Below, piece by piece: positions 636 to 16,305 of a DNA stretch of 49,506 bases. Below the pieces are notes generated by a model that made no database searches, was not told the origin of the DNA, and saw only the letters and a list, made by a program, of their open reading frames with translations. A program made the translations under genes and the position numbers. Origin of the DNA: Candidatus Omnitrophota bacterium (GTDB taxonomy: Bacteria > Omnitrophota > Koll11 > Duberdicusellales > 4484-171). The stretch covers positions 1-49,506 of the forward strand of contig JAUYCY010000099.1 in NCBI GenBank assembly GCA_030692055.1. The letters are read 5' to 3'. Numbering within the stretch: position 1 is the first letter of the stretch; each line of letters starts with the position of its first letter.

Positions 636-637
636 CT

Positions 638-797: not shown

Positions 798-952
798 GAC
801 GGATTTTTGCGGATGCAAACGGATGTAATGCAGATTCAAACGGATGGTTACGGATGTCGCGGATAAATTAATCCCTGCCTGCCGGCAGGCAGGCGTCTGA
901 ATCCCCGCCTTGCCGAACAAGGCGAGGCAGGCGTAATAATCCGTGTGCATCT
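798..952 (+). repeat. GATGCAAACGGAT-family element, gene-less
   Basis: Left half carries iterated GGATGCAAACGGAT and GATTCAAACGGAT words; the right end is ATCCGTGTGCATC, their reverse complement. The middle holds a perfect 20-bp palindrome at 874-893 and a degenerate second copy. No GxxExxY gene is present. The internal stretch GGTTACGGATGTCGCGGAT is shared with the element at 15262-15342. Confidence 0.85.
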
Positions 953-1005
953 ATTGCCCGAAGGGTTGACACGCTATATAAAAAGTGCTAATCTTTTATA
1001 GCAGA

Positions 1006-1114
1006 GATTACACAGATTTCCGCCTGAGGCGGATCAGCCTTCGGCTGAAGATATTAGATTACACAGATTTTTTAAGAAAGTAATCAGTGTAATCTAATTT
1101 TAATCTGCGTAATC
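1006..1114. repeat. GATTACACAGATT palindromic element
   Basis: GATTACACAGATT at 1006-1018 faces AATCTGCGTAATC at 1102-1114, with further copies of the word inside and small GC hairpins near 1021-1048. Related elements are at 21591-21681 and 33368-33526. Confidence 0.75.
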
Positions 1115-1132
1115 AATTTATAAAAATGATAT

Positions 1133-1320
1133 GAACCCCGTTAGACCTTATGTAAAAAAAAGTTTGATGCCGTTAAGAAATTGTTTTTTGCCAAAACATA
1201 GGAAAGGTCTAATCGGGGTGAACCCCGTTAAACCTTTAATGTTTGGAGGCTAAGGGGTGACTTTGGTTGATTCATGTTCATTAATCTTGATATAAAATTA
1301 ATGGAGGTCTAACGGGGTGA
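1133..1320 (+). mobile_element. Gene-less tandem pair with ends of the GIY-YIG cassette
   Basis: There are two units. Unit 1 (1133-1219) starts GAACCCCGTTAGACCTT and ends AGGTCTAATCGGGGT. Unit 2 (1220-1320) starts GAACCCCGTTAAACCTT and ends GGAGGTCTAACGGGGTGA. The same ends bound the GIY-YIG gene at 22424-22697. Neither unit contains an open frame. The right end of unit 2 supplies both the Shine-Dalgarno (GGAGGT, 1303-1308) and the GTG start (1317) of the next gene. Confidence 0.75.
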
Positions 1321-2648
1321 AGAAAAATCTTTCGATACGTTCAGTAAGCTTAAAAAGAAGAATATGGGTAGCTGTTTCTTTGGTTACCTTCATACCTTCC
1401 ATAATTGTGCTTTATTATTTTAGCGGAATTTATATTTCTCCGCCCGCTGTTCTAATCGCTGCTTTTATAGTGTTTTTGGGTTGGTGGATTATTTTTGAGA
1501 TTTTTTCCTCTATTCTCAGGCTATATTCTAATTCAAAAAAGACCTTAAAAAATATAGGAGAAGAAGCGCCAGAAATTGCAAACGAGGTGCAGAGCTTAGA
1601 GGCGATAGTAAACATGTTTTCTTCTAAAATGAAAGGCAGCCTTGAGCAATTGAAAGATTTCAGCCAAAAAACCGAAGAGCTAAACCAGGAAGTTTCAAAA
1701 AAAGTTTTTGTCCTTTCCACAATCATACAGGCTAACGACCTTTTTTCTAAGGATGCGCCCTCTGAAGACATACTACAGCTGCTTACTCAACGTTTAAAAG
1801 AAATATTGGCGATGAAAGTATGTTTTTGTATTTCAAGAGATGAGGATATCGATAAGTTTACTGTAGTTTCGTATTTTGGAATGGATGTATCAAAGATAGA
1901 AGATGCCCTAGAGAAGGAGGGCAAAGAATTGATAAAGCTTAAAAAAATTATGGCTTTGGATAAAGAAAATAAATCTTCTCAAGTTACGTCATTGGCAAAA
2001 GAATTGGGCGTCAATAATATAGCTCTGAACCCTATAACGTCCAAGGGGCAATTAATAGGATTTTTAGTTATCGCTAATAACAGCGATAATTTTGTTTTCA
2101 GCGCGGATAACTTAAATATCCTGAGTTTATTTTCTCAAAATGTATCTTTAGTCTGGGAGCATAAAAAATTATCCGTTAAGGTTGATTCACTAGAGATACT
2201 TGATTATTTAACCGGTCTATATAATGAGAAGTTTATAGTTAAAAGGTTAGACGAGGAAATTAATAGGGCTCTCATTTATCAAAGGCCGTGCGGGTTTTTA
2301 CTTATGGAAATAATTAATTTTGAAGAGTGTCAAAAAACATATGGTTTACTTGAAGCAGAAAAGTTAGTTAAAAAGGTCGCTAGGGTATTTAAGGAGACGC
2401 TGCGGCCCATAGATATAGCGGCGCGCCTTGCGCCTAATAGGTTGGGAGCGATTCTAATAGAGAAAAATAAAAGGCAATCGCAGACTGTCGCTAGCAACTT
2501 AAAAGAGAAGTTAGAGAATAGTTTTAAAGACCAGTTAAAATTGGCTTTTTCCGTTGCAGAAAATCCAATAGACGGTGCAAATTCCCATGAACTTATAAGT
2601 TTTGCCCAGTCCCACATTAGTATATCCGGAATAAATGAAGCCCCCTAG
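1317..2648 (+). CDS. Membrane GAF protein with degenerate GGDEF domain
   Basis: 443 residues. Two N-terminal membrane helices (about 17-35 and 42-62) are followed by a charged, coiled-coil-like stretch (about 70-135), a GAF-like sensor region (about 140-280) and a C-terminal GGDEF-fold domain beginning DYLTGLYNEKF (about 293). The active-site loop that should read GG(D/E)EF is replaced by LAPNRLGAIL, so diguanylate cyclase activity is unlikely; it may bind a nucleotide or act as a scaffold. The GTG start with a Shine-Dalgarno 8 bp upstream lies inside a repeat end. It overlaps the next gene by 14 bp, which suggests a regulatory role in pilus assembly. Confidence 0.8.
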   Translation: MKKNLSIRSVSLKRRIWVAVSLVTFIPSIIVLYYFSGIYISPPAVLIAAFIVFLGWWIIFEIFSSILRLYSNSKKTLKNIGEEAPEIANEVQSLEAIVNMFSSKMKGSLEQLKDFSQKTEELNQEVSKKVFVLSTIIQANDLFSKDAPSEDILQLLTQRLKEILAMKVCFCISRDEDIDKFTVVSYFGMDVSKIEDALEKEGKELIKLKKIMALDKENKSSQVTSLAKELGVNNIALNPITSKGQLIGFLVIANNSDNFVFSADNLNILSLFSQNVSLVWEHKKLSVKVDSLEILDYLTGLYNEKFIVKRLDEEINRALIYQRPCGFLLMEIINFEECQKTYGLLEAEKLVKKVARVFKETLRPIDIAARLAPNRLGAILIEKNKRQSQTVASNLKEKLENSFKDQLKLAFSVAENPIDGANSHELISFAQSHISISGINEAP

Positions 2649-3072
2649 ACAGATTGAAAAACCTCTTGGCCAAATTTTGGTAGAAAGAGGTATTGTCACA
2701 CGCCCTCAGCTTGAAAAAGCCTTAGAAATTCAAAAGAAAGAAGGAGGCTTAATTGGTGAAGTTTTAGTAAAGTTAGGCTTTACGACAGAGGAATCTATCG
2801 CTCACTGTCTTTCTTTACAGTTTGGCTTTCCGTATCTGCCTTTGGAAAATTACGAGGTATCCAAGGAAATCGTTCGTTTAATTCCTAAAAATGTTGCAGC
2901 GCATTATTGCCTAATAGCTATAGATAAGATAGGCAATACTTTGACTATCGCTATCGCTAACCCTTTAAACATACAGGCGATAGAAGACTTAGAAGACTTG
3001 ACGCACTGTGAGATTCAGATATTTATAAGTACTCCTTCAGATATAAGAAAGAGTATAGAAAAATTCTATTGA
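2635..3072 (+). CDS. Solitary MshEN / GspE N-terminal domain protein
   Basis: 145 residues covering only the N-terminal domain of PilB/GspE ATPases (T2SSE_N/MshEN, PF05157), with no ATPase part. It reads LGQILVERGIVTRPQLEKAL, then GGLIGEVLVKLG, the repeated pattern that binds cyclic di-GMP in MshE. The usual first arginine of RLG is replaced (K-P-L-G), so ligand binding is uncertain. It starts inside the end of the degenerate GGDEF gene and precedes two full-length ATPases with the same N-domain. It may bind the ATPases or compete for a nucleotide signal; this is inference. Confidence 0.82.
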   Translation: MKPPRQIEKPLGQILVERGIVTRPQLEKALEIQKKEGGLIGEVLVKLGFTTEESIAHCLSLQFGFPYLPLENYEVSKEIVRLIPKNVAAHYCLIAIDKIGNTLTIAIANPLNIQAIEDLEDLTHCEIQIFISTPSDIRKSIEKFY

Positions 3073-3078
3073 GATAGA

Positions 3079-3160
3079 AGCGGAACATCGCGGATTAAAA
3101 CGCGGAATAACGCAGAAAAATCCGCGTAAATCAGCGTAGATATCCGCGTGTATCCGCATC
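3079..3160. repeat. CGCGGAT-word palindromic element
   Basis: Left half carries GCGGAA, CGCGGATTAAAACGCGGAA and CGCAG; the right half carries the complement TCCGCG, ATCCGCG and ATCCGC. It fills the gap before the first pilB gene. The element at 37494-37579 is similar. Confidence 0.7.
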
Positions 3161-3175
3161 TATGGAGCGTAAGCG

Positions 3176-4876
3176 ATGATGAAAGAGAAATTTGCAGATT
3201 ATTTAATTGATAAAAAATTAATTTCTAAAGAAGACCTAAGCAAAGCTTTAGCTGAACAAAAAACAAAAAGCGGTTCTTTAGTTGAAGTTCTTATAAAATT
3301 AGGTTGTATGCAAGAACAACAGCTTTTAGGTATTCTTTCCGGTTATCTTTCTATACCCCCTGTTCACATTGCTAATCTCACCATAACTAAAGAAATTTTA
3401 GCGTTAATTACGGAAAAGATTGCACGCACATACCAGGTACTACCTATAGGTAAAATCGGCAGCAGCATAACCATTGCTATGGCGGATCCGCTAAACATAT
3501 TACTTATTGATGATTTGAAAAAAATTACCGGATGCGAAATAAACCCTGTTATATGCTCTTTATCTGAAATCAAAGAAGCAATATCCACGCATTATTCACA
3601 AACTACTACCACTACCACAGCCTTAGAAGAAATCATAAAAGATCAAAAATCAGAAGCTATAGAGATTATACACGCAAAAGCCGAGGCAGTAGAAGAGGCC
3701 ATTGAAACGATAGATGAAGCACCGGTGATAAAATTTACTAATTATCTTCTAGAAAGAGCTGTTTCTGAGAGAGCATCCGATATTTTGATAGAGCCTTTAG
3801 AAAAGGTAAGCAGGGTGAGGTTTCGTATTGATGGTATTTTAAAAGAAATTGAGACATTTCTTAGGAAAACTCATCCTTTCGTTGTTTCACGCATAAAAGT
3901 TATGTGTAATTTAAATATTGCCGAGCACAGGCTTCCGCAAGAAGGGAGATTTCGGATCACTACTTTAAATAGAAGCGTAGATTTTAGAGTTTCAATTTTA
4001 CCTTCTAGTTTAGGAGAGAAAGCTGCGCTAAGAATTTTAGATAAAACTACAGCATTGCTAGATTTAAACCTTTTGGGGTTCGAAGAAGATGTTTTAAAGA
4101 ATTTACGCCGGGACAGCCTAAAGCCTCACGGTTTGATTCTAGTCTGCGGCCCCACAGGCTCAGGAAAAACCACCACTTTATATTCCATAATAAGCTATAT
4201 ATATACGCCGGAAGAAAATATCATTACTGTCGAAGACCCTATAGAGTATCAATTAAGAGGAATAAATCAGGTCAGTATAAATCCCGTAATAAATCTAACA
4301 TTTGCTTCTTGTCTGCGCTCAATATTACGCCAAGACCCGGATATAATTATGGTAGGAGAAATTAGGGACTACGAAACAGCGGACATGGCTATAAAAGCAG
4401 CGCTTACCGGACACTTGGTTTTGTCAACTTTGCATACCACAACCAGCGCAGGTTCAATTACCCGTCTACTTAATGTGGGAATAGAGCCATTTCTTCTTTC
4501 CTCAACCTTGATAGGAGTGCTTACTCAAAGGCTGGTGAGGAATTTGTGCCCAAAATGCAAAGAAGAATTTGATGTTCCCGATACGATAAGGGAAAAATAT
4601 TCAATTGAGAAAAAAGCAAAAGTTTACAAAGCAAAAGGGTGTAATCTCTGTCAAACCACAGGCTATAAGGGTAGAATTGCCCTATGCGAATATTTACAGG
4701 TTTCGCCTAAAATGCGCTCCCTGATAAGTTCCAATACCTCCGAACATACGATTAAAAGAGAGGCCAGGCTTTTAGGCATGCATACTTTACGGGAAGACGG
4801 TTTACTAAAAATAGCAAAAGGTGTAACCACCATAGAGGAAGTATTAAAGGTAACCGGGTCGGACGAACCACTATAA
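3176..4876 (+). CDS. pilB: Type IV pilus assembly ATPase, PilB/GspE family (copy 1)
   Basis: 566 residues, normal for the family. An N-terminal MshEN-like domain (about 5-140) is joined by a Thr- and Glu-rich linker to the motor domain. Visible motifs are SDILIEP (201-207), Walker A GPTGSGKT (325-332), Asp box VEDPIEY, Walker B DPDIIMVGEIRD (387-398), the His box STLHTTTS, and a four-cysteine zinc site (C458, C461, C489, C492). It hydrolyses ATP at the inner-membrane base to drive pilin polymerisation. ATG codons at 3176 and 3179 are both possible starts, with GGAG upstream. It is one of two PilB-type ATPases in the locus, so the two may serve different pilins or one may replace PilT. Confidence 0.93.
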   Translation: MMKEKFADYLIDKKLISKEDLSKALAEQKTKSGSLVEVLIKLGCMQEQQLLGILSGYLSIPPVHIANLTITKEILALITEKIARTYQVLPIGKIGSSITIAMADPLNILLIDDLKKITGCEINPVICSLSEIKEAISTHYSQTTTTTTALEEIIKDQKSEAIEIIHAKAEAVEEAIETIDEAPVIKFTNYLLERAVSERASDILIEPLEKVSRVRFRIDGILKEIETFLRKTHPFVVSRIKVMCNLNIAEHRLPQEGRFRITTLNRSVDFRVSILPSSLGEKAALRILDKTTALLDLNLLGFEEDVLKNLRRDSLKPHGLILVCGPTGSGKTTTLYSIISYIYTPEENIITVEDPIEYQLRGINQVSINPVINLTFASCLRSILRQDPDIIMVGEIRDYETADMAIKAALTGHLVLSTLHTTTSAGSITRLLNVGIEPFLLSSTLIGVLTQRLVRNLCPKCKEEFDVPDTIREKYSIEKKAKVYKAKGCNLCQTTGYKGRIALCEYLQVSPKMRSLISSNTSEHTIKREARLLGMHTLREDGLLKIAKGVTTIEEVLKVTGSDEPL

Positions 4877-4884
4877 ATATAATC

Positions 4885-5362
4885 GATGCAGACGGATTAC
4901 GGCGGATGCAGACGGATATAGCGAAGATGCAAACGGATAAGTTATTATTTAGGGAACTAACCTATAAAATTATTGGTATTTGTTATAGAATTCATACCAG
5001 CCTTGGTTGCGGTTTTCCTGAAAAAGTATATCAGAAAGCATTGGAGATAGAGTTTCATAAAGAAGGTATAACTTACGAAACAGAGAAAGCCTTTAGGGTG
5101 CTTTATAATAAGGAAGCGATAGGTAGGTTTAGATTAGATATGGTCATTGATGGAAAGGTTGTTATTGAGCTTAAGGCGGTTGAGCGTTTACCTAACGTAT
5201 TTAGAGAACAAATAATCTCGCAGCTTAAAGCTTCTCCTTACGAGGTCGGGCTTTTGGTAAACTTTGGTTCTTCTAAGTTAGAATATCTTAGGATAGCACG
5301 CTCTAAACCCATCCGTTTGCATCCCTGCCTGCGGCAGGCAGGCGTCATAATCCGTTTGAATC
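4885..5362 (+). mobile_element. GATGCAAACGGAT-family element carrying GxxExxY gene A
   Basis: Left end has iterated GATGCAGACGGAT words (4885 on); right end has ATCCGTTTGCATC (about 5311), an imperfect CCTGCCTGC palindrome and AATCCGTTTGAATC (to 5362). The GxxExxY gene occupies nearly the whole interior. The element lies between the two pilB genes and stops 4 bp before the ATG of the second. Confidence 0.8.
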
Positions 5363-5370
5363 TATTATGA
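4906..5370 (+). CDS. GxxExxY protein, copy A (predicted PD-(D/E)XK nuclease fold)
   Basis: 154 residues. The family motif is GFPEKVY (36-42). The predicted nuclease core is D78 (RLDMVIDG) and E88-x-K90 (IELK). Both tandem MQTD stretches at the N-terminus are translations of the left-end word ATGCARACGGAT, so the start codon is part of the repeat; starts at 4906 or 4927 are possible. The last 20 residues are translated from the right-end repeats. The stop overlaps the ATG of the second pilB gene as ATGA. The biochemical role of the family is unknown; a part in moving or maintaining the flanking repeats is my inference. Confidence 0.85.
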   Translation: MQTDIAKMQTDKLLFRELTYKIIGICYRIHTSLGCGFPEKVYQKALEIEFHKEGITYETEKAFRVLYNKEAIGRFRLDMVIDGKVVIELKAVERLPNVFREQIISQLKASPYEVGLLVNFGSSKLEYLRIARSKPIRLHPCLRQAGVIIRLNLL

Positions 5371-7046
5371 ACGTCAAAGAAAAAATTTTAGATTATATAA
5401 CAAAGAATAAGGCCATCAACAAACATACCCTAAAGACTATCGATGGGGCAAAAGATTACGACAACTTTAAGCGCTTACTTATAGAAAGTAATCTTATAAC
5501 CGAAGAAGAATTGCTGCTTATTTTTTCTAAAGAATTCAGAATGCCGTTTCTGGATTTAAAAAAGTATAGGGTGCCTTATAAGAATAAGGAATTACTTCCG
5601 CGAGACATAGCTTTTAAATACAAAGTTTTCCCCTTATGTACAATAGGAAATATCCTTACTATAGTTACTTCTAATCCTTTGGATGTCCTAATACAGGACG
5701 ATATACGTATTATTACAGGTGTAGGTAAAGTTGACCCCGTGCTTTCGCGGGAAGAGGATATTGTTAAAGCTCTTACGATGCTATACAAGGAAGAAAATAC
5801 CGCGAAGGCGTTAGACGAAGAATCTTCCTTTGAGGTGAGCGAGAGTTATGAGATGAAGGAATCTTTAGAAACCTTAATTGAAGAAAGTAAGCACCCCCCC
5901 ATTGTAAGAGCCGTAGATTTACTTATTTATAACGCGCTTAAAAAAAGGGCTTCAGATATTCATATAGAGCCCTACCAAGATAAATTATTAGCTAAATATA
6001 GGATAGACGGGGTGTTGCATGAGGAATTTGATTTCCCTAAAAAAAATCAACAGGCAGTACTTGCGCGTTTAAAGATAATTTCTTCTTTAGATATCACAGA
6101 GTCACGGCTGCCTCAAGACGGAAGATTTAAGGTAAAGTTTGAAGGAAGAGAGATAGATTTTAGGGTTTCCAGTTTACCCACCAATTTTGGAGAAAAGTTT
6201 GTTTTAAGGGTATTGGATAAGGAAAATCTATCTACGGGTTTAAAAAGCCTGGGTTTTTCAAACGAGCCGCTTACACTTTTTGAAGAGGCAACTAAAGCGC
6301 CCTTCGGCATTTTGGTAGTTACTGGCCCTACCGGAAGCGGAAAATCCACAACCCTATATTCGATAGTTAACCAGATGAATACTCCTGATAAAAATATCGT
6401 GACCATTGAAGACCCCATAGAATATCAGGTAGAAGGTATAACGCAAATTCATGTAAATACAGAAATAGGCCTTACTTTTGCTAATGGCCTACGATCAGTA
6501 TTGCGGCAATCCCCGGATATCATTATGGTCGGAGAGATAAGAGATTCAGAGACCGCAGATATAGCTATTAAAGCGTCGCTCACCGGAGAATTTATCCTTT
6601 CTACGCTGCATACAAACACTGCAGTAGGCGCAATCACAAGGCTGATAGATATGGGGGTGGAGCCGTTTCTTCTAGCTTCTTCTTTGGTTGCTTCAACCGC
6701 ACAGCGGCTCGTTAGGAAGCTCTGCCCAAAGTGTATGGAGAAATATGCGATAGAAGAAAAGGTTTTAAAAGATTTAAAAATAAATACTTCGCAGAGGGAT
6801 TTCTTTAGAGCCAAGGGCTGTGATTATTGTAATAATACCGGCTATAGAGGCAGGCTAGCAATCCTAGAAGTTTTGCTTATCGATGATAAAATTAAAGAAA
6901 TGATTGTGGGTAAAAGCTCCGAAGATGAAATCACCCAATATGCTACTAAATTTAAAGGGTATAAGCCTTTAAGGGAGAATGGTTTTTCTAATTGTATAGA
7001 AGGGTTAACTTCCCTTGAAGAAGTTTTAAAAGTAACATCAGAATAA
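5367..7046 (+). CDS. pilB: Type IV pilus assembly ATPase, PilB/GspE family (copy 2)
   Basis: 559 residues. It has a weaker GspE N-domain (about 1-140), an acidic linker, SDIHIEP (196-202), Walker A GPTGSGKS (320-327), Walker B SPDIIMVGEIRD (382-393), STLHTNT and four zinc cysteines (C453, C456, C485, C488). This copy matches canonical PilB motifs more closely than copy 1 (SDIHIEP against SDILIEP). No Shine-Dalgarno precedes the ATG, because the space is filled by the mobile element. Translation probably depends on coupling to the GxxExxY stop (ATGA overlap). Confidence 0.93.
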   Translation: MNVKEKILDYITKNKAINKHTLKTIDGAKDYDNFKRLLIESNLITEEELLLIFSKEFRMPFLDLKKYRVPYKNKELLPRDIAFKYKVFPLCTIGNILTIVTSNPLDVLIQDDIRIITGVGKVDPVLSREEDIVKALTMLYKEENTAKALDEESSFEVSESYEMKESLETLIEESKHPPIVRAVDLLIYNALKKRASDIHIEPYQDKLLAKYRIDGVLHEEFDFPKKNQQAVLARLKIISSLDITESRLPQDGRFKVKFEGREIDFRVSSLPTNFGEKFVLRVLDKENLSTGLKSLGFSNEPLTLFEEATKAPFGILVVTGPTGSGKSTTLYSIVNQMNTPDKNIVTIEDPIEYQVEGITQIHVNTEIGLTFANGLRSVLRQSPDIIMVGEIRDSETADIAIKASLTGEFILSTLHTNTAVGAITRLIDMGVEPFLLASSLVASTAQRLVRKLCPKCMEKYAIEEKVLKDLKINTSQRDFFRAKGCDYCNNTGYRGRLAILEVLLIDDKIKEMIVGKSSEDEITQYATKFKGYKPLRENGFSNCIEGLTSLEEVLKVTSE

Positions 7047-7067
7047 ATACTTATTGATGATGTAATA

Positions 7068-7508
7068 CGGATTCAAACGGATATAGCGAAGATACAAACG
7101 GATAAGTTATTATTTAGGGAACTAACTTATAAAATTATTGGTGTCTGTTATAGAATTCATACTACTTTAGGTAATGGTTTTCCTGAAAAAGTGTATCAGA
7201 AAGCTTTGGAGATAGAGCTTAATAAAGAGGGCATAACTTATGAGACAGAAAAAGCCTTTAAAGTGCTTTATGATAAAGAAGTGATAGGTAGTTTTAGGCT
7301 GGATATGGTTATTGACGGAAAGGCCATTATTGAACTCAAGGCGGCAGAGGGCTTGCCTAAAGTATTTAGAGAGCAATTGATTTCACAGCTTAAAGCCTCT
7401 CCTTACGAGGTAGGTCTTTTAGTAAACTTTGGTTCTTCTAAGTTAGAATATATTAGGATCGCGCGCTCTAAACGTATCCGTTTACATCCGCTAAAATCCG
7501 TTTGAATC
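7068..7508 (+). mobile_element. GATGCAAACGGAT-family element carrying GxxExxY gene B
   Basis: Left end CGGATTCAAACGGAT (7068-7082) followed by ATACAAACGGAT; right end ATCCGTTTACATC and ATCCGTTTGAATC (7496-7508). There is no CCTGCC palindrome in this copy. It sits between pilB copy 2 and pilC, 9 bp before the pilC ATG. Confidence 0.8.
7092..7505 (+). pseudogene. GxxExxY protein, copy B, start codon lost
   Basis: The frame is intact from position 7092 to the stop and nearly identical to copy C (about 11 differences over some 385 bp by eye). The codon matching the ATG of the MQTD start is ATA, giving IQTDKLLFREL. No in-frame ATG, GTG or TTG lies upstream before the pilB stop; the first candidate is GTG at 7191, which would remove the GxxE part of the motif. 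Core residues (GFPEKVY, RLDMVIDG, IELK) are retained. It is either a recent pseudogene or translated from a non-standard AUA start. Confidence 0.7.
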
Positions 7509-7517
7509 TATAATAAT

Positions 7518-7565
7518 ATGTTAAATTTTTCTTATAACATAAAAAATAAGGAAGGAAAATCATGA
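7518..7565 (+). pseudogene. Displaced N-terminus of PilC (frameshifted)
   Basis: ATG at 7518 reads MLNFSYNIKNKEGKS then TGA. This is the expected beta-strand start of PilC/GspF proteins, normally followed at once by GTIEAES. The main pilC frame opens at the overlapping ATGA (7562-7565). A -1 shift in the AAAA run at 7556-7559 would join them as ..NKEGKIMKGTIEAES. Confidence 0.75.
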
Positions 7566-8733: not shown

Positions 8734-8918
8734 GATTCAAACGCCTGCCTGCCGGCAGGCAGGGATTATTATAGATGCAGACGGATGGGAAACGTGATTC
8801 AGACGGATAAAAAAAGGATTCAAACGGATGAGAGCGGATGTAGACGGATAATCCATCTGTTTGCATCCCTGCCTGCCGAAGCCATCGGCGTAGGCAGGCG
8901 CCACAATCCGTATGAATC
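8734..8918 (+). repeat. GATGCAAACGGAT-family element, gene-less, left of pilin
   Basis: It starts GATTCAAACG, has the perfect 20-bp palindrome at 8744-8763, iterated GATGCAGACGGAT, GATTCAGACGGAT and GATTCAAACGGAT words, then a second, looped palindrome and AATCCGTATGAATC. Much of its right half recurs in inverse orientation at 9759-9980 and directly at 16194-16305. Confidence 0.85.
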
Positions 8919-9061: not shown

Positions 9062-9100
9062 TAAAAAGAAGGCTATATTTCTTTATAATTATATATTAAA

Positions 9101-9216
9101 TGGCTCTGCAAAAGGAGGTGAAAAAGCTACAAAAAGGAGCCAGGTCGTCAAGAAAATCGCTTTGCGATAACTTTTAAGCGATTTTCAGTGGTTAGGAAAG
9201 GGCTTTATGCTTTCCT
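9101..9216 (+). promoter_or_regulatory. Structured 5' leader of the pilin mRNA
   Basis: Three successive stems: TGGCTC/GAGCCA (9101-9106 with 9137-9142), an 11-bp perfect stem GAAAATCGCTT/AAGCGATTTTC (9152-9162 with 9176-9186) and AGGAAAG/CTTTCCT (9194-9200 with 9210-9216). A full Shine-Dalgarno-like AAAGGAGGTG (9111-9120) lies in the loop of stem 1 with no good start codon after it. The real Shine-Dalgarno follows at 9228-9235. It looks like an mRNA stability or control leader; no known riboswitch core was recognised. Confidence 0.55.
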
Positions 9217-9239
9217 ACACCATAAAAAAGGAGGTAAAG

Positions 9240-9689: not shown

Positions 9690-9716
9690 GCGATATTGTA
9701 ACTTCTAGAGCAAATT

Positions 9717-9752
9717 AGGGGTGACAAGAAATTGTCACCCCTTTCTTTTTTT
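9717..9752 (+). terminator. Rho-independent terminator after pilin
   Basis: Perfect 10-bp stem AGGGGTGACA (9717-9726) with TGTCACCCCT (9733-9742), a 6-base loop, then TTCTTTTTTT. It isolates the pilin as a single-gene unit. Confidence 0.92.
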
Positions 9753-9758
9753 GGAAGA

Positions 9759-9980
9759 GATGCAAACGGATTGATACAGATTCAAACGGATTGTGGCGCC
9801 AGCCTACGCCGATGGCTTCGGCAGGCAGGGATGCAAACAGATGAATTATCCCTGCCTGCCGGCAGGCAGGCGTATGAATCCGTCCTCATCCGTTTGAATC
9901 TATTTTATCCGTCTGCATCCATTTCCCATCCGTTTGCATCCTTATTTATCCGTCTGTATCCGTCTTCCATCCGTCTGCAT
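9759..9980 (-). repeat. GATGCAAACGGAT-family element, gene-less, right of pilin
   Basis: GATGCAAACGGAT (9759-9771) and GATTCAAACGGAT at the left; many ATCCGTTTGCATC, ATCCGTCTGCATC and ATCCGTTTGAATC words at the right, ending at 9980. The perfect 20-bp palindrome is at 9851-9870. On the reverse strand its core matches 8734-8918, so the pilin gene lies between inverted copies. Long open frames across it have only repeat-derived composition. Confidence 0.85.
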
Positions 9981-10001
9981 TGTTTTTTTAGAAGAGATAA
10001 A

Positions 10002-10030
10002 TTGACAAAGCCGTTTAAACATAATAATAT
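10002..10030 (+). promoter_or_regulatory. Promoter for the second pilin-like gene and pilM operon
   Basis: TTGACA (10002-10007), 17-bp spacer, TAATAT (10025-10030). The start codon follows 38 bp later. Confidence 0.7.
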
Positions 10031-10068
10031 ATCTTTAAGTAAAGACTTATTCTAATAAACTTAAAGAT

Positions 10069-10551
10069 ATGTTTTTTAACCTATTTTCAAGAATCAGACA
10101 AAACCGTTTAAATAGCACTGCTAAGGCATTCACCCTTATTGAAATAATGGTGGTATTAGCCATAATTTTGATATTAGTAACCTTAGTTATTCCTAATATC
10201 CTGCGTTTGCGCATAAATTCTAACGAAATAGCTGCTGTCAGCAATTTAAATACTTTAGGTAAAGCTGCGCAACAGTATTGTATGCAAAATGGCTATAAAT
10301 ATCCCCAAAACTTAACTGACCTTACTCTTCCTACATCAAACCCACCTTATATTAGTCAGGAGCTGGCAAGCGGTTCTTTGTCAGGGTATTTATTTGCCTA
10401 TACGTACGTGGATGATGACAATTTTTATGTCAAAGCTAACCCTAAATCTGTCGGAAAAACCGGTGTGAGGTATTTTTATTTAGATGAGACCGGTGTCATA
10501 AGATATAATTTAGAACAAGAAGCAGGTGCAAATGATCCCCCTGTTAAATAA
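10069..10551 (+). CDS. Pilin-like / pseudopilin protein
   Basis: 160 residues. The cleavage region is KA|FTLIEIMVVLAIILILVTLVIP. The leader is long (about 19 residues, MFFNLFSRIRQNRLNSTAKA) and has alanine instead of glycine before the cut, which prepilin peptidases often tolerate. Mature E5 is present. The head carries the WD-like minor motif common in GspG/PilE-type proteins (VRYFYLDETGVIRY). It is probably a minor pilin or an alternative major one. It has its own promoter and overlaps pilM. No clear Shine-Dalgarno was seen. Confidence 0.88.
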   Translation: MFFNLFSRIRQNRLNSTAKAFTLIEIMVVLAIILILVTLVIPNILRLRINSNEIAAVSNLNTLGKAAQQYCMQNGYKYPQNLTDLTLPTSNPPYISQELASGSLSGYLFAYTYVDDDNFYVKANPKSVGKTGVRYFYLDETGVIRYNLEQEAGANDPPVK

Positions 10552-11509
10552 TTTTTTAAAGACAGATACTGAGAGTTTTGTTGCTATAAATTTAGGTAAT
10601 CAGTACATTAAGGGTTTAGTGGTTAAAGGGGATGAGATTATAGATTTTTTTTTAAAAGAAAAGAAAGATATTCCTACCACTTTAAGGGAAATATGGCAGG
10701 AAAAAAAGATAACTACCGACACAGTAAAGATTTCACTCAAAGATGCGGCTACTATCGTTAGATATTTCCCTTTTCCTAAATTAGAGAAGAAAAAGATAAA
10801 GCAGACCCTTTTTTATGAGCTTAACAAACACATCCCTTTTCCTCCCGAGGAAGTCTATTTTGATTTCTCTATTTTAGAAGAACTAAACCCTTCAGAGATT
10901 TTTGTTCTTCTTGCCGTAGCAAAAAAAGAATTTATTAACAATATTTTGCAGATTTTTGAAAAGGAAAAGATGAAGGTTTCAAGTATTACCCTTGACAGTA
11001 TATGCCTAATCAATCTTTTTCTCAAAAACCAGGCAGAAACAAAGATAAACAGTTGTATCCTTGATATAGGAAATAGCTTCTCAACCTTAACTATTTTAAA
11101 GAAAGAAACGCCGCATCTAACCAGAGATATCGGCTTCGGCATCAAAGATATTTTTAATATAATATCTCACACAAAAAATATGCCTTTAGAAGAAATAGAG
11201 AATTGGTTTGCTTGTGTAGAAAACCATAATGAGGTTTTAGAATTATCACAAGACAGCATATCCGGGTTATGTAAAGAAATTAAAAGTTCATTCGATTATT
11301 TCGAGGTAAATAAAGGCGAGCGCGTAGAGAAACTTTACCTTACCGGCGGGCTTACCTATATTAAAAATATTGATAACGTTTTTAAGGATTATTTAGATGT
11401 AGAGACAGGATTTTTAGATAATGCGCAGAATTTAAAGATTTCTTTTTCTAAAGAAGATTTTAACAGAGTCAAAAACAGTTTCTCCGTGGCATTGGGGCTA
11501 GTATTGTAA
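10532..11509 (+). CDS. pilM: Type IV pilus actin-like protein PilM
   Basis: About 325 residues. It has actin-fold features: FVAINLGNQYIKGLVVKG at the N-terminus (phosphate loop 1), FPFPKLEKKKIKQTLFYELNKHIPFPPEEVYFDF, a second nucleotide loop SCILDIGNSFSTLTIL (about 175-190) and LYLTGGLTYIKNI near the C-terminus. PilM is cytoplasmic and binds the PilN tail to dock the motor. ATG at 10532, 5 bp after AGG, is preferred to GTG at 10526. It overlaps the pilin-like gene by about 20 bp. Its partner pilN is now separated from it by a mobile element. Confidence 0.88.
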   Translation: MIPLLNNFLKTDTESFVAINLGNQYIKGLVVKGDEIIDFFLKEKKDIPTTLREIWQEKKITTDTVKISLKDAATIVRYFPFPKLEKKKIKQTLFYELNKHIPFPPEEVYFDFSILEELNPSEIFVLLAVAKKEFINNILQIFEKEKMKVSSITLDSICLINLFLKNQAETKINSCILDIGNSFSTLTILKKETPHLTRDIGFGIKDIFNIISHTKNMPLEEIENWFACVENHNEVLELSQDSISGLCKEIKSSFDYFEVNKGERVEKLYLTGGLTYIKNIDNVFKDYLDVETGFLDNAQNLKISFSKEDFNRVKNSFSVALGLVL

Positions 11510-11521
11510 ATACTTAATAAC

Positions 11522-11999
11522 GATGCAAACGGATAAGTTATTATTTAGGGAACTAACTTATAAAATTATTGGTGTCTGTTATAGAATTCATACCAGTCTG
11601 GGTTGCGGTTTTCCTGAAAAAGTGTATCAGAAAGCATTGGAGATAGAGCTTAATAAAGAAGGTATAACTTATGAGACAGAAAAAGCCTTTAAAGTGCTTT
11701 ATGATAAAGAAGTGATAGGTAGTTTTAGGCTGGATATGGTTATTGACGGAAAGGCCATTATTGAACTCAAGGCGGTAGAGCGCTTGCCTAAAGTATTTAG
11801 AGAGCAATTGATTTCACAGCTTAAAGCCTCTCCTTACGAGGTAGGTCTTTTAGTAAACTTTGGTTCTTCTAAGTTAGAATATATTAGGATCGCGCGCTCT
11901 AAACGTATCCGTCTGAATCCCTGCCTGCCGCCTGCCTGTCGGCAGACAGGGCAGGCAGGCATCATAATCCGTATGAATCAATAGTAATCCGTTTGCATC
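11522..11999 (+). mobile_element. GATGCAAACGGAT-family element carrying GxxExxY gene C
   Basis: Cleanest copy: 13-bp perfect terminal inverted repeats GATGCAAACGGAT (11522-11534) and ATCCGTTTGCATC (11987-11999). The interior is the GxxExxY gene plus an expanded CCTGCCTGCC palindrome (about 11920-11962). It separates pilM from pilN and ends 6 bp before the pilN ATG. Confidence 0.85.
11523..11984 (+). CDS. GxxExxY protein, copy C (predicted PD-(D/E)XK nuclease fold)
   Basis: 153 residues. ATG is the second base onward of the left terminal repeat, giving MQTDKLLFRELTYKIIG. It has GFPEKVY, the core RLDMVIDG...IELK and VGLLVNFGSSKLEY. It is about 97% identical in DNA to copy B over the shared body. 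The patch coding for HTSLGCGFPEK is closer to copy A, which suggests gene conversion among copies. The last 20 residues come from repeat DNA. It has an intact start, so it is the best candidate in the window for an active family member. Confidence 0.87.
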   Translation: MQTDKLLFRELTYKIIGVCYRIHTSLGCGFPEKVYQKALEIELNKEGITYETEKAFKVLYDKEVIGSFRLDMVIDGKAIIELKAVERLPKVFREQLISQLKASPYEVGLLVNFGSSKLEYIRIARSKRIRLNPCLPPACRQTGQAGIIIRMNQ

Positions 12000-12005
12000 T
12001 AAACT

Positions 12006-12560
12006 ATGGATAAAATATATATCAATTTAAATCCAAATATAGAGAAGTTTGATACCGCAACATTTAAGAAGCTATCTTATTACGCAGTCCTAGGTGTTAT
12101 CTCGGTCTTAATTATAATTTTATTCTTGGGTTTATTTGTTACTATCCGTTTGTCAAGCTTAAATAGCTATAAAACAAAATGGAAAAGCTGGGAGGAAAGG
12201 GCTACTTCGTTAAATAAAATAAAAGCCCAATTAGCAGAATTAGAAGCCGAGAAAAAGGAATTTCAGAAAATAGTTATTCCCTATAATCAGGTAGCCAGTA
12301 TTTTTGAAGATTTATTTATATCTTTGCCGCACAATATATGGCTTGATACCTTAAGTATTAAAAAAGACTCCCTTAGCCTAAAAGGCTATGTCTTAAAACT
12401 CGACGAGGATTATTTGATTTCTCTAGAAAAGTTTATAAACGCTATGAAAAAAAGAGAGTATTTTTCTTCAAAGTTTAAAAAAATAAATATAAAAGACTCC
12501 AAAAAGGAAAATTTTTATGGAGTTGAGGTTTTAGAATTTAATATAGAATGCGTAAATTAG
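12006..12560 (+). CDS. pilN: Type IV pilus inner-membrane protein PilN
   Basis: 184 residues. The cytoplasmic start is DKIYINLNPN (the PilM-binding INLLP-type motif). It has one membrane helix (about 28-50), a coiled coil (about 55-90) and a periplasmic ferredoxin-like fold with the typical LPHNIWLDTLSI. PilN forms the alignment subcomplex with PilM, PilO and PilP. There is no Shine-Dalgarno because the repeat ends 6 bp upstream. It overlaps pilO by 13 bp. Confidence 0.87.
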   Translation: MDKIYINLNPNIEKFDTATFKKLSYYAVLGVISVLIIILFLGLFVTIRLSSLNSYKTKWKSWEERATSLNKIKAQLAELEAEKKEFQKIVIPYNQVASIFEDLFISLPHNIWLDTLSIKKDSLSLKGYVLKLDEDYLISLEKFINAMKKREYFSSKFKKINIKDSKKENFYGVEVLEFNIECVN

Positions 12561-13087
12561 ATTTAGATAAACACATAGTTATATTTTCTGTCGCGGCATT
12601 TATTTTGTTATTAGAGTTATTATTAATATTGCCTTTAGAAATTAAAAAAATAGGCGAAATGAATAAAGCCGCAGCAAAATTCAGGCAGGATATAGACAGT
12701 GTTGAGAAAGACTGGCCTAATAAGGACATCTATTTAGCAAGTAGTCAGGCGGCAAAGGCAGAGATTCAAAGGTTATCTGAAAAGTTTATTGTCCCTCAGC
12801 AGGAATCAGGTATATTTTCTTTTATTTCTTCAGAAAGTAAGGGTTTCGGCGTAGAAATAAAAGTTTTAAAGCCATCAGAAATTGAAGATTATGTTTCCAC
12901 AAAATTTGGAAAGTTTAAATATCTGCCTATTAACATAAAAGCGCAAAGTCAATTTCACGATCTAGCAAGGTTTTTAGACTATCTTCAAAGCGGAAAACTT
13001 TTCTTTGAGGTAAAGGAAATTACGATTAAAGCAAATTACCCTAATAATTTAGTAGATATAATTATATGCGGTTTAGTAAAAGAATAA
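12548..13087 (+). CDS. pilO: Type IV pilus inner-membrane protein PilO
   Basis: 179 residues. One N-terminal membrane helix (about 10-30), a coiled coil and a C-terminal alpha/beta domain (LPINIKAQSQFHDLARFLDYLQ, typical of PilO). It pairs with PilN in the periplasm. The gene starts within the end of pilN and ends within the start of pilP, so the three are translationally coupled. Confidence 0.86.
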   Translation: MRKLDLDKHIVIFSVAAFILLLELLLILPLEIKKIGEMNKAAAKFRQDIDSVEKDWPNKDIYLASSQAAKAEIQRLSEKFIVPQQESGIFSFISSESKGFGVEIKVLKPSEIEDYVSTKFGKFKYLPINIKAQSQFHDLARFLDYLQSGKLFFEVKEITIKANYPNNLVDIIICGLVKE

Positions 13088-13647
13088 ACCATTTGACTTC
13101 ATCCCTTGACAGGCTCAAGGACATCCTCGAGCAAAGTCGAATGGATTCGCTCAGGGTTTGCTTCGACAAGCTCAGCATCCTTCATCCTTTGACAAACTCA
13201 GGACGAACACTGAGCATAGTCGAATGTGTCCGAAGCATCCTGAGCAATGTCGAAGGAATACTGAGCGGCGCACTGCATATATTTGCACTCTTAACGGTGC
13301 GAATATGGCGCCGTCGAAGTATAAATATTTTCTTAATATTATTTTTGGTCCCTTTGTGTGCTGCGGTTTGCGCCAATCGCGATTATCCTTTTAGCAGTTC
13401 TGACAGGGACCCATTTTTACCGCTTATAACAAAACAAGGACAAATTTTGCTGCAACAAAATACAGGGATAAAAAGTTTAAAATTAAATGGTATAATATAT
13501 TCTAATGACGGTAGCTTAGCTATCATTAGCGATGAAATATATAAAAAGAATGATGTGATTAATGGTTATACAATTGTTAGGATAGGAGCTAAAAAAGTTA
13601 TTTTAAAAAAAGGTAAAGAGTTAATTATTTTAAAATTGGAGGAATAA
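13066..13647 (+). CDS. pilP: PilP/GspC-like periplasmic protein with repeat-encoded insert
   Basis: 193 residues. The C-terminal 90 residues fit the PilP/GspC homology region: SDRDPFLPL, LNGIIYSNDGSLAIISDEIYKKNDVINGYTIVRI, ending in short beta strands. The hydrophobic export segment INIFLILFLVPLCAAV is at about residues 86-101, not at the N-terminus. Between MRFSKR and it lie 79 codons (13084-13320) made of interspersed repeat, in frame and free of stops. PilP normally links PilN-PilO to the secretin. Either the insert is tolerated or translation restarts inside it. The signal-anchor region then overlaps nothing else and pilQ follows directly. Confidence 0.75.
   Translation: MRFSKRINHLTSSLDRLKDILEQSRMDSLRVCFDKLSILHPLTNSGRTLSIVECVRSILSNVEGILSGALHIFALLTVRIWRRRSINIFLILFLVPLCAAVCANRDYPFSSSDRDPFLPLITKQGQILLQQNTGIKSLKLNGIIYSNDGSLAIISDEIYKKNDVINGYTIVRIGAKKVILKKGKELIILKLEE
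13084..13320 (+). repeat. 237-bp in-frame repeat insertion in pilP
   Basis: It is composed of iterated units such as GACAGGCTCAAGGAC, CGACAAGCTCAGC and GAGCATAGTCGAATG, the CTCAGGACAAGCTC/TTCGAC family also found at about 20191-20257, 21755-21800 and 30411-30443. Its length is exactly 79 codons. The bases at both junctions are similar (AAAAGAATAAAC and CGAAGTATAAAT). Confidence 0.7.
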
Positions 13648-15224
13648 TGGAAAAATATCAAAAATCATACCTTAGATGTCAGATGACACCTGCCTGCCGG
13701 CAAGGCAGGGATGTCAGATGTCAGATTATTATGTTTTCTGTGCTCTGTCTTCTGTCTTTTGTCTTCTGCCCCTTAGCTGTTATTTACGCACAAGATGATG
13801 TAATTCCTGTTGTCAAATTTAAGGACGCAGACATAAAGATAGTTTTACAGTCCATAGCTCAAAAAGCTATAAAAGACGGAAAGAAAGTTAATATTGTGGT
13901 AAGCCCCAAGGTGGAGGGCTTAGTGAATGTAGATTTAGAGGCGGTTGATTGGCAGACCGCGCTTAAAGGGGTGCTTAGCGCTTACGGTTATAGCTATAAA
14001 TGGGTTGGCGATAACATCATTTTAGTGGCTACGGTTGAGGAGATAAAAGAAAAAGACATACAGGATAAAGAGAGGCAAGAAATTGAGGTGCCGCGGATTA
14101 AGGTATTTAAGCTGATCTTTATAGACGCTAACGACGCTAAGATTGCAATACAATCTTTGCTTTCGCCCTTAGGAAAGGCTACGGTACTGGAGTCTACGGG
14201 CCAGGCCGGTTGGGAATTCGGAGAAGACCTTACCAAGCGAAAAAGGTCAAAGGAAGGCCAAGTTTCGCGCACTAAGACTTTAGTTGTTTCCGATACCTCA
14301 AAGAGCCTGGAAGAAGTAGAAAAGTTACTTAAAGAAATAGATAAAGAGCCTAAGCAAATTTTGATAAAAGCAAGAATTATGGAGGTAGATAGAACCCTGT
14401 TGCGTGATATTGGTTTTGATTTCGGAACCGGTTCTGGCGGCGCTTCTAGCACTACCCTTACCGATATCAAATTTAATGCTAGGGGTAATCAGACTGTCGG
14501 TGCTCATGTGCTTGAAAATACCACACCTACTATTTATCCTTCAGGCACCTCTATCACTACTTCAAACACGGGGCTAAAGTTTGATTTTAAGCTCTTAACT
14601 GGTTCTCAATTTGAAGTTATTATGCATGCGCTAGAAGATGATATGAAAACCAATGTACTTTCCGCGCCAGTTATATTAACTTTGAATAATCAAGAGGCTT
14701 CAATTCTAGTCGGCACAAAATACCCGATTATTAAAACAGAGATAAGCACTCAAACCGGACAAGTTACCGGCGGTTCTTTGGATAGATATCAGGATATCGG
14801 TATACAGCTTAATGTGGTTCCGCAAATTTGTGGAGACGCTGATGAATATGTGAATATGATTATCCACCCTATTGTCAGTTCTAAGACAGGAGATTTATCT
14901 GTCAAAGCTAGTACTTCAGATACTGCAATAGTTTCCTACCCTATAATTGATGCCCGCGAGGCAGAAACGCAAATTATACTTCGTGACGGCGAAACCATTG
15001 TGATGGGGGGGTTATTGAAAGATGTAAAGAAAAAAGAAAGAACCGGTGTCCCTGTTTTAGGTAAACTTCCTGTTCTTGGGTGGCTATTTCAGAGAGACAT
15101 TTTCTATACTGAAAAAGTAGATTTATTAATTTTTATTACTGCTAACATAGTGAAACCGGGGAAAGCTTTGCCTGCGGGTGCGGTAGAAACTAAGCCTGTG
15201 CTTTCAAAATTCAAGACAAAATAA
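13647..15224 (+). CDS. pilQ: Secretin PilQ/GspD
   Basis: 525 residues. After the signal peptide come an N0/STN-like domain (VIPVVKFKDADIKIVLQSIAQ, about 50-120), an N1-like domain (about 135-230, with a basic KRKRSKEGQVSR loop) and the C-terminal secretin barrel. The barrel is marked by VLSAPVILTLNNQEASILVG, IGIQLNVVPQI and the signature DGETIVMGGLLKD...GVPVLGKLPVLGWLF. It forms the outer-membrane pore for the pilus. The start at 13647 has GGAGG 6 bp before it; the hydrophobic core of the signal begins only at residue 29 (ATG 13731) because repeat DNA extends the N-region. Confidence 0.93.
   Translation: MEKYQKSYLRCQMTPACRQGRDVRCQIIMFSVLCLLSFVFCPLAVIYAQDDVIPVVKFKDADIKIVLQSIAQKAIKDGKKVNIVVSPKVEGLVNVDLEAVDWQTALKGVLSAYGYSYKWVGDNIILVATVEEIKEKDIQDKERQEIEVPRIKVFKLIFIDANDAKIAIQSLLSPLGKATVLESTGQAGWEFGEDLTKRKRSKEGQVSRTKTLVVSDTSKSLEEVEKLLKEIDKEPKQILIKARIMEVDRTLLRDIGFDFGTGSGGASSTTLTDIKFNARGNQTVGAHVLENTTPTIYPSGTSITTSNTGLKFDFKLLTGSQFEVIMHALEDDMKTNVLSAPVILTLNNQEASILVGTKYPIIKTEISTQTGQVTGGSLDRYQDIGIQLNVVPQICGDADEYVNMIIHPIVSSKTGDLSVKASTSDTAIVSYPIIDAREAETQIILRDGETIVMGGLLKDVKKKERTGVPVLGKLPVLGWLFQRDIFYTEKVDLLIFITANIVKPGKALPAGAVETKPVLSKFKTK
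13689..13709. repeat. CCTGCCTGCCGGC palindrome inside the pilQ signal sequence
   Basis: A copy of the dispersed 20-bp palindrome with one extra base lies between direct repeats of GATGTCAGAT. It is translated as TPACRQGRDV within the first 28 codons. Confidence 0.7.
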
Positions 15225-15261
15225 AATAGAAGGCAAATTTTCATAAAAAAGTTTTATCATG

Positions 15262-15342
15262 GATGCAAACAGATGGTTACGGATGTCGCGGATGAAAAAT
15301 ATCAGAATTATCCGTTTGAATCCGTCAAAATCCGTATGCATC
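15262..15342 (+). repeat. GATGCAAACGGAT-family element, smallest copy
   Basis: GATGCAAACAGAT (15262-15274) faces ATCCGTATGCATC (15330-15342). Only 81 bp, with no gene and no CCTGCC palindrome. It lies in the pilQ to gspA gap. The stretch around GGTTACGGATGTCGCGGAT matches the element at 798-952. Confidence 0.8.
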
Positions 15343-15387
15343 CCTTATGTCTTCACATAAACACAGTTAAAATAATGCCCCAATAAA

Positions 15388-16185
15388 ATGTATATTGATT
15401 TTTACGGCCTTAAAACCTTTCCTTTTAGTATTACCAGTAATCCTGAATTTTTCTTTGCCAGCGATTCTCATAAGGAAGCTTTGGCTTGCCTTTTATACGG
15501 TATTCAGGAAAAAAGAGGCATAATTTTAATGACCGGAGAAGTCGGAACAGGGAAAACTACACTTTGTAAGACCCTGCTTACAGGGCTACCGTCAAACATA
15601 AAAACCTCTCTCATCCTTAACCCTTATTTTAGCGAAGTGCAGCTGCTTCAAGCAGTTATTCAGGATTTTGGAATTATTGCAGTAAAAAAGAGCCGCCTAG
15701 ATATAGTCAATGCTTTAAATTCTTTTTTATTAGATATCCGTTTACAGGGAGGTAATGCAGTTTTGATCGTTGACGAAGCACAGAATTTAACTAACCGTCA
15801 GTTAGAGCAAGTAAGGCTTCTTTCTAATCTAGAGACATCGGATGAAAAATTGCTGCAGATAATTCTTGTGGGCCAACCCGAGCTTGATGAAAAACTTAAA
15901 GCATTTGGCCTGCGCCAAATCCGTCAGAGAATATGTATAAAATATAAACTTGTTCCGCTACGCGAAGAAGAAGTCAAAGATTACATAGATTTCCGGCTTA
16001 AAAAAGCAGGCGATATTAGTTTAGCCATCGAGCCTTCTGCCTATAAGGTTATCTATGAATTTTCCAAAGGTATCCCTCGTCTTATCAATGTACTTTGTGA
16101 CAGGGCAATGCTGTGCGGTTTTGTAAAAGATAGAAAGGTTTTTGACGAGGAAATTTTGAAAGCCTGTATCGAAGAACTAAAATAG
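15388..16185 (+). CDS. ExeA/GspA/MshM-type AAA ATPase
   Basis: 265 residues. It begins MYIDFYGLKTFPFSITSNPEFFF, the family hallmark. Walker A is GEVGTGKT (50-57) and Walker B is AVLIVDEAQNL (D129-E130), followed by the arginine-finger region RLLSNLETSDEKLLQIILVGQPEL and the C-terminal lid. ExeA with ExeB inserts the secretin through peptidoglycan in Aeromonas; MshM is its pilus counterpart. The C-terminal peptidoglycan-binding domain of full ExeA is absent, so this is the short MshM-like form. It is followed by a GspB-like gene, completing the pair. Confidence 0.88.
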   Translation: MYIDFYGLKTFPFSITSNPEFFFASDSHKEALACLLYGIQEKRGIILMTGEVGTGKTTLCKTLLTGLPSNIKTSLILNPYFSEVQLLQAVIQDFGIIAVKKSRLDIVNALNSFLLDIRLQGGNAVLIVDEAQNLTNRQLEQVRLLSNLETSDEKLLQIILVGQPELDEKLKAFGLRQIRQRICIKYKLVPLREEEVKDYIDFRLKKAGDISLAIEPSAYKVIYEFSKGIPRLINVLCDRAMLCGFVKDRKVFDEEILKACIEELK

Positions 16186-16193
16186 TAAAAGCA

Positions 16194-16305
16194 GATGCAG
16201 ACGGATAAAATAGATTCAAACAGATGAGAGCGGATGCATACGGATAATTCATCTGTTTGCATCCCCGCCTTGCCGGCGAGGCAGGCGCCATAATCCGTGT
16301 GCATC
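16194..16305 (+). repeat. GATGCAAACGGAT-family element, gene-less, before gspB
   Basis: GATGCAGACGGAT at 16194, GATTCAAACAGAT, a looped palindrome with CCCCGCCTTGCCGGCGAGG, and ATCCGTGTGCATC (16293-16305). Its right half closely matches the right half of 8734-8918. It ends 15 bp before the gspB ATG. Confidence 0.83.

Follow-up and report, generated by a model that had tools for sequence, protein, structure and literature searches.

The closest described counterparts of the elements reported here are the REPINs, short words arranged as inverted pairs in extragenic sequence, of which a genome can have several word families, each tied to its own RAYT gene; movement of REPINs in trans is proposed with its mechanism left open, and RAYTs are described as single copy (PMC3116915). 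A second counterpart is the intervening sequence (IVS) of 23S rRNA genes. The 428-nt Coxiella IVS has three tandem heptamers (GACAGAT) ahead of the S23p open reading frame (ORF), 28-bp terminal inverted repeats that form a stem, and excision by RNase III, and the origin and function of IVSs were called unclear there in 2016 (PMC4990558). Insertion sequences (IS) and miniature inverted-repeat transposable elements (MITEs), where a gene-bearing parent is accompanied by gene-less derivatives with the same ends, form the third. Here we describe elements found in a 49,506-base stretch of Candidatus Omnitrophota DNA (contig JAUYCY010000099.1; the window hereafter), in which inverted arms built from a 13-bp word, GATKCARACGGAT, enclose either a gene of the GxxExxY family (PF13366, TIGR04256) or no gene at all. 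Both the element class and its association with GxxExxY genes are well supported, and we consider it somewhat more likely than not that the elements belong to a widespread class of REPIN-like miniature selfish intergenic elements whose GxxExxY nuclease recognises its own words.

When both strands of the window were scanned for GATKCARACGGAT at up to one mismatch, 38 matches were obtained (19 on each strand), against a mean of 0.1 in 10 first-order Markov shuffles, and all of them are confined to the eight clusters E1–E8 (Table 1). The eight inverted-repeat elements proposed in the initial annotation are thus borne out, as is its statement that left ends are made of the word and right ends of its reverse complement, with one exception at 9830. 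The word is not self-complementary, and adjacent words within one arm are mostly 19–22 bp apart; wider gaps of 39–60 bp also occur, several of which coincide with an inserted CCTGCC-type palindrome. All eight element midpoints fall outside the listed coding sequences (CDS), although the non-CDS fraction of positions 1–18061 is 0.214 (chance about 4e-6, if the elements are independent), and only E8 overlaps a CDS, by 9 bp. The genes around them belong mostly to a type IV pilus/type II secretion cluster. Within the gene-bearing elements PF13366 is the only Pfam family matched, with no transposase of a known catalytic class, and four mechanically called ORFs across E4, E5 and E8 (antisense across E4 and E8, 107 aa long across E5) gave no Pfam match above the cut-off.

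Three of the elements enclose GxxExxY frames, as had been annotated; one of these, in E3, has no ATG, and a fourth GxxExxY gene at the window edge had been missed. In E2 and E6 the start lies within the left word (ATG CAA ACG GAT AAG), while ATA replaces the ATG in E3, where the first listed start is only an internal GTG, so that this copy is probably crippled. All three proteins score far above the curated cut-off of TIGR04256 (120–127 bits against 35), and the two that were scanned do likewise for PF13366 (120 bits against 22); the E2 and E3 proteins are 88% and 93% identical to that of E6. Their C-termini are encoded by the right arm, in E2 and E6 also through an inserted CCTGCCTGC-type palindrome, and the 3′ end of the E2 ORF overlaps the start (5367) of the next listed ORF. 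Since dN/dS among the window copies is 0.09–0.23, their divergence was that of working genes.

Table 1. Word-built elements, GxxExxY frames and related repeats in the window.
Feature	Position	Strand	Details
E1, gene-less	798..952		left words 812, 833; right words 939, 891 (2 mismatches); palindrome CCTGCCTGCCGGCAGGCAGG inside
E2, gene-bearing	4885..5362	+	left words 4885, 4905, 4926; right words 5311, 5350
GxxExxY ORF of E2	4906..5370	+	154 aa from 4906; homologous start ATG 4927, within left word
E3, gene-bearing	7068..7508	+	left words 7070, 7091; right words 7476, 7496
GxxExxY frame of E3	7083..7505	+	start lost, ATA at 7092; first listed start internal GTG 7191
E4, gene-less	8734..8918		words 8734 (2 mismatches), 8774, 8796, 8817, 8837 / 8855, 8906
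E5, gene-less	9759..9980		words 9759, 9779, 9830 / 9878 (2 mismatches), 9888, 9907, 9928, 9948, 9969
E6, gene-bearing	11522..11999	+	left word 11522; right words 11907, 11967, 11987
GxxExxY ORF of E6	11523..11984	+	153 aa; ATG within left word; conserved E32, D71, E81, K83, Q95
E7, gene-less	15262..15342		81 bp; word scan
E8, gene-less	16194..16305		112 bp; word scan
Fourth GxxExxY gene, C-terminal end	1..138	+	cut at window edge; PF13366, E 1.9e-9
Right end of fourth element	139..247		different word, CCGCAGAT type; read by eye
Gene-less element, word GATTACRRYGATT	16899..16982		word scan
Second gene-less element, word GATTACRRYGATT (GATTAC)	18139..18222		word scan
CCTGCCTGCCGGCAGGCAGG palindrome copies	871-904, 5320-5353, 8741-8774, 9848-9881, 11917-11950
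CCTGCCTGCCGGCAGGCAGG palindrome copies, further	21608-21641, 23667-23700, 33484-33517, 42673-42706

Inverted arms are a general feature of GxxExxY genes. Selection by similarity to the window protein gave 118 genes, of which 109 were used (seven were excluded because their flanks were short or N-rich or because of the window edge, and L003 and L004 duplicate L001). Each was scored by the best inverted match between its left and right flanks, with 103 other ORFs, shuffles and mismatched flanks as controls. The median arm score was 13 for the GxxExxY genes and 8 for all three controls alike; 75 of the 109 exceeded the 99th percentile (11) of the other ORFs, and also that of the shuffles. Leaving out the three window genes, 72 of 106, from the phylum of the TA06 genome described below, did so; the linked inverted words whose absence around GxxExxY genes elsewhere the initial annotation had named as refuting evidence are thus present. 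Among 30 PIN genes, taken as a small dispersed control family, none scored above 11 and one reached it.

The word tracks the gene, not the genome. For this comparison, the left arm of one locus was scored against the right arm of another and set against protein identity, giving 13.5 for gene pairs at ≥60% identity (159 pairs) and 8.3–8.6 below 50%; across all pairs the Mantel Spearman coefficient was 0.19, a value not reached in any of 500 permutations. Close pairs from different genomes still scored 13.7 (135 pairs), whereas pairs below 50% identity within one genome scored 8.8 (177 pairs), and the 137 of the 159 close pairs in which no neighbour homology was detected scored 13.6. Covariation of GxxExxY subfamilies with the flanking word, suggested as a check in the initial annotation, is thus found also across genomes and away from neighbour homology. 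A gene's own two arms were not more complementary to each other than to the arms of other copies (13.03 against 13.16; 80 genes, P 0.16), nor was there an asymmetry between changes that keep G-U pairing and their mirror images (47 against 42). Both results suggest that the arms are kept as words, as binding sites would be, and not as a compensating stem, and an RNA hairpin as the main conserved unit was rejected on these grounds.

The words also recur with a regular spacing. The best repeat lag was 9–11 bp in 96 of 108 GxxExxY arms (z 16.3 at lag 10 and 10.2 at lag 9), bearing in mind that the two arms of one locus are not independent in these counts. A similar organisation is seen around genes of PF05635, the four-helix-bundle family of 23S rRNA intervening sequences, which occur in 80 of the 147 genomes of one phylum from which most of our loci come (see below). 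Of 70 sampled loci, L186 was not used and the flanks of two others led to their exclusion; 46 of the remaining 67 lie above the control limit for inverted arms, and the best lag is 7–8 bp in 74 of 80 arms, with z 28.9 at lag 7. Four-helix-bundle proteins lie in similar elements with words 7–8 bp apart. Lag 7 had been measured before the comparison with the heptamers of the Coxiella IVS, which match this spacing in PF05635 elements outside rRNA genes (PMC4990558). Like the 23S rRNA IVS, the window elements have inverted arms at their ends around a single small ORF and lie in transcribed sequence, but they stand between protein genes and not in a 23S rRNA gene, their ORF is PF13366 and not S23p (PF05635), and GxxExxY elements mostly keep the 9–11 bp spacing.

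The same word is found in a second lineage. A scan of genome contigs returned one locus, L001 from a TA06 genome, in which GATKCARACGGAT occurs twice on each side of a GxxExxY gene that is broken into two overlapping pieces in different frames, with a TAG inside the first; the word is thus present in both Omnitrophota and TA06. Of the listed relatives of the window's RlmN, all that carry an organism name are Omnitrophota, except one labelled simply 'bacterium'. In the phylum of the TA06 genome, 75 of 147 genomes have a GxxExxY match. Exact GATKCARACGGAT occurs in 159 copies in 27 genomes (G001, G068–G093), a grouping defined after the counts were seen, and in 35 copies across the remaining 120; read backwards, the word gave 9 copies in all 147. 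Close relatives of the window GxxExxY subfamily (L001, L005–L008 and, in part, L013) fall in this word-rich group. Of 35 printed word clusters from its regions, 21 are gene-less, because both arms lie within 51–121 bp, and L303 has a GxxExxY gene; the remainder are single arms or dispersed words. In the best-formed gene-less clusters the arms are about 33 bp long, with words at 0, 10 and 20. Because the contig scan gave a single locus, breadth in named organisms beyond the TA06 genome is drawn from seven plasmid records with GxxExxY genes (arm scores 47, 21, 19, 16, 11, 9 and 7). The four clear cases come from Gemmatimonadota, Bacteroidota (two) and Alphaproteobacteria, and include the fabD/fabG gap in Sphingomonas parapaucimobilis and a position downstream of radA in Bacteroides finegoldii.

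Occupancy of orthologous sites was compared using purpose-written ORF and tRNA scripts for the orientation, neighbour and empty-site calls. Site 1, between carboxyltransferase and cupin genes (30 loci, 20 read by script), holds GxxExxY elements with one shared word in L114, L118, L133 and L136, a gene-less copy in L120, a PF05635 gene (Pfam E 6e-17) among AAATCCGAA-like repeats in L125, further gene-less word families seen by eye, and a 64-bp gap with no element in L123. Site 2 lies between tRNA-Arg and a nitroreductase gene (30 loci, of which 28 have the tRNA). Four loci carry GxxExxY elements with GATTAC-type words and three carry remnants of words (in L153 judged by eye only); five contain other filler, and sixteen have 119 bp or less and no word. 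On the nitroreductase gene tree (171 columns, midpoint root), four changes are required to explain the GxxExxY state, which is not fewer than with shuffled labels; to one side of a weakly supported branch every row, eleven in total, is empty. At site 3 (L057, whose arms are weak, score 7), the 97–98% identical G081 sequence is without 374 bp covering nearly the whole gene and has at the junction a 6-bp repeat with short words on either side; from this near-identical pair, the G081 state is best read as an internal deletion that would have turned a gene-bearing copy into a gene-less one. G082 has repeats of the AAATCCGAA type at this site. Orthologous sites are thus filled, gene-less, taken by another family or empty, the empty ones being from diverged genomes; in the initial annotation, constant occupancy of the same site would have spoken against mobility.

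In addition to site occupancy, we have compared similar copies at unrelated sites, and in three of seven pairs (L077/L081, L087/L090 and L019/L043) the homology stops about 12 bp or less from the outer words. Orientation was strongly biased. Among 97 GxxExxY genes with both neighbours near, 78 run in the same direction as both, 4 opposite to both and 15 are mixed (78 against 4, P 8e-19), and the 24 such PF05635 genes gave 20, 0 and 4, respectively. This leaves two options: only transcribed copies persist, or entry is coupled to transcription.

The GxxExxY protein is a PD-(D/E)XK nuclease, probably of RecB/Cas4-like type as judged from its predicted fold (pLDDT 83.5), whose nearest structures are SSO0001 and other RecB/Cas4/lambda-exonuclease-like folds at middling scores. 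The close folds are mostly DNA nucleases, with tRNA-splicing and cap-snatching endonucleases also among them; GxxExxY differs from Cas4/RecB-type nucleases in its length of about 130 residues and in the large rmsd of the structural comparison. A published reverse-transcriptase pipeline reported a GxxExxY domain at a gene that a different tool had called cas4 (PMC8934634), in line with this likeness. A sequence search of solved structures with the window protein gave nothing significant. The core D-x9-E-x-K is preserved, with D, E, K, E32 and Y35 invariant in alignment A2 (42 sequences); among the 109 genes the D/E/K residues are kept in 108/107/108 and G/E/Y in 107/106/108. The median dN/dS of 0.129 (61 pairs, highest 1.66) indicates purifying selection. 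Among defence and phage families, PADLOC gave weak matches only (the window protein at E 0.037, the L125 four-helix-bundle protein at E 0.0011) and PHROGs none, and membership in such a family was rejected. In the GxxExxY literature searched by family names and word strings, with subscription papers mostly outside coverage, no sign of the element or of a mobility role appeared.

Starting from the observed layout, linkage, covariation, repeat spacing, site turnover and purifying selection, we infer that the nuclease binds and cuts the words and mobilises the element, mobilisation by the nuclease being the simplest reading. An element would consist of two inverted arms of short words, one per approximate helical turn (9–11 bp), with an optional GxxExxY gene between them. 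The nuclease would recognise the words of its element on both arms and cut or process DNA there, so that the element may be spread or maintained in tolerated intergenic spots. Gene-less copies would arise at least partly by internal deletion, as in the one case at site 3, and would probably be served in trans. Such an element-enzyme pair would be functionally like REPINs and their RAYT, with an unrelated enzyme, since a PD-(D/E)XK nuclease stands in place of a Y1 (HUH) transposase. REPIN words are palindromic and those described here are not, several words at about 10-bp spacing make up each arm, and the gene lies inside the element and can be multicopy, unlike the RAYTs, described as single copy (PMC3116915). 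The likeness to a transposon and its MITEs drawn in the initial annotation holds in that gene-less copies share the ends and one gene loss was by probable internal deletion; it had left out the multiple words per end in place of one terminal repeat, the co-orientation and the IVS parallel, and no known-class transposase and no target duplication were found.

Several observations weigh against this reading. When mismatched flanks from other GxxExxY loci serve as the control, the 99th percentile is exceeded by only 30 of 109 genes and the 95th by 53%, in part owing to the resemblance between words of different families; 34 of 109 are not above the 99th percentile of other ORFs, including loci with visible words and low scores (L001 and L013, 11; L006, 10; L034, 9; L057, 7). 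No GxxExxY match is listed for the word-rich genomes G081 and G085, those listed for G093 are all distant, and the arms of plasmid records L304 (7), L306 (9) and L305 (11) are not above controls. One phylum supplied almost all of the data, and many of its genomes are fragmented. Sequence shared by L093/L097 continues about 34 bp (left) and 15 bp (right) past the words, and that of L046/L051 also runs past them. Target-site duplications, another check named in the initial annotation, were not seen by eye in the seven pairs or at the three orthologous sites (G084 against G001 at site 2 is compatible with none or with a 5-bp one), nor was a clear one present at either stretch of extra DNA in G081 relative to G079 (the L301/L277 mini-element and a GATTAC-word stretch in L283). 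No excision or fresh insertion was observed in the compared genomes. The main feature left unexplained is co-orientation with the host operon, which sets the elements apart from a simple DNA transposon. The nuclease as mobility candidate, as first annotated, thus gains from the linked words, the covariation and the site variation, while mobilisation itself is inferred.

The foremost alternative, which we consider unlikely, is that GxxExxY is a selfish passenger nuclease that uses the words for autoregulation or self-recognition, while ordinary recombination, transformation or other transposases spread the unit. The ATG lies within the left word in E2 and E6, and binding there could therefore repress the gene; unrelated element families were seen by eye to occupy common sites; and the lack of target duplication also fits. 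However, the three pairs above, in which similar copies stand at unrelated sites and homology stops close to the words, speak against a mere passenger, and two-armed gene-less copies as common as in the clusters of the word-rich group would not be expected from mere operators.

Less probable still is an RNA-level element resembling the 23S IVS, with arms that form a transcript stem cut out by RNase III and entry into transcribed regions by an RNA-linked step. The co-orientation of both gene families and the PF05635 elements of the same layout favour it, together with the stem, RNase III excision and heptamers of the Coxiella IVS (PMC4990558), but selection for read-through transcription could equally give the co-orientation, the arms show neither G-U asymmetry nor special complementarity to each other, and the closest folds are mostly DNA nucleases, even with the two RNA-cutting types listed among them. 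That the words are host-useful sites for DNA organisation, termination or uptake, with GxxExxY a domesticated caretaker, is the least probable reading; the intergenic position of all eight window elements and the word-rich G081 and G085 would suit it, but the different word families within one genome and the repeated state changes at orthologous sites do not.

Further repeats accompany the elements. In the window, GATTACRRYGATT gave 13 matches at up to one mismatch against 0.49 expected, and this word also surrounds another GxxExxY subfamily (L002, L016). Several copies of the CCTGCCTGCCGGCAGGCAGG palindrome family sit inside word arms (Table 1). E5 is flanked by a 16-bp direct repeat, TTTTTTTrGAAGAGAT, with one mismatch (9746–9761, 9983–9998), possibly a duplication or two T-runs, and is overlapped by a sub-threshold Moco riboswitch match (9669–9776; 21.6 bits against 36) that is probably due to chance; the Rfam scan of positions 1–20000 gave nothing at threshold and no rRNA match. 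A 151-nt direct repeat occurs three times (637–787, 43649–43799 and 49356–49506), 96–98% identical to the middle copy. Mini-hairpins of unrelated sequence adjoin elements (L266, L267, L274, L286, L288, L290, L296; window 16870–17011) and often directly precede a Shine-Dalgarno sequence; in L269/L279 and L266/L283, element and hairpin diverge far more than the surrounding sequence. A further mini-element, about 160 bp long and with ends that resemble CATATAATAGTTTCA (L301:1888–2044, L277:2445–2608), is 98.8% identical at two G081 sites and absent from the matching G079 site, and a tandem array of the left arm (GATGCACAGATGACACAGAAAAATAGG) stands ahead of a GxxExxY gene in G080 (L311:300–480).

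More tentatively, and at somewhat less than even chances, GxxExxY proteins may be the enzymes that move a new class of elements, one that ranks among the smallest autonomous mobile elements and is present in at least five bacterial phyla, in which a private word read by the enzyme is repeated once per helical turn on both arms and enzyme and word diversify together as a protein-DNA code; the four-helix-bundle proteins would then form a parallel class with a heptamer code, and the 23S rRNA IVSs would be its members noticed so far.

GxxExxY and four-helix-bundle genes, which are often multicopy and unexplained and were found in 75 and 80 of the 147 genomes, would gain a testable role as partners of word-built elements, and this reading would account for intergenic repeat families that otherwise look like noise. 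The question of how IVSs arise and move becomes experimentally addressable, and, because the word varies with protein similarity, the elements provide natural data from which a protein-DNA recognition code could be studied.

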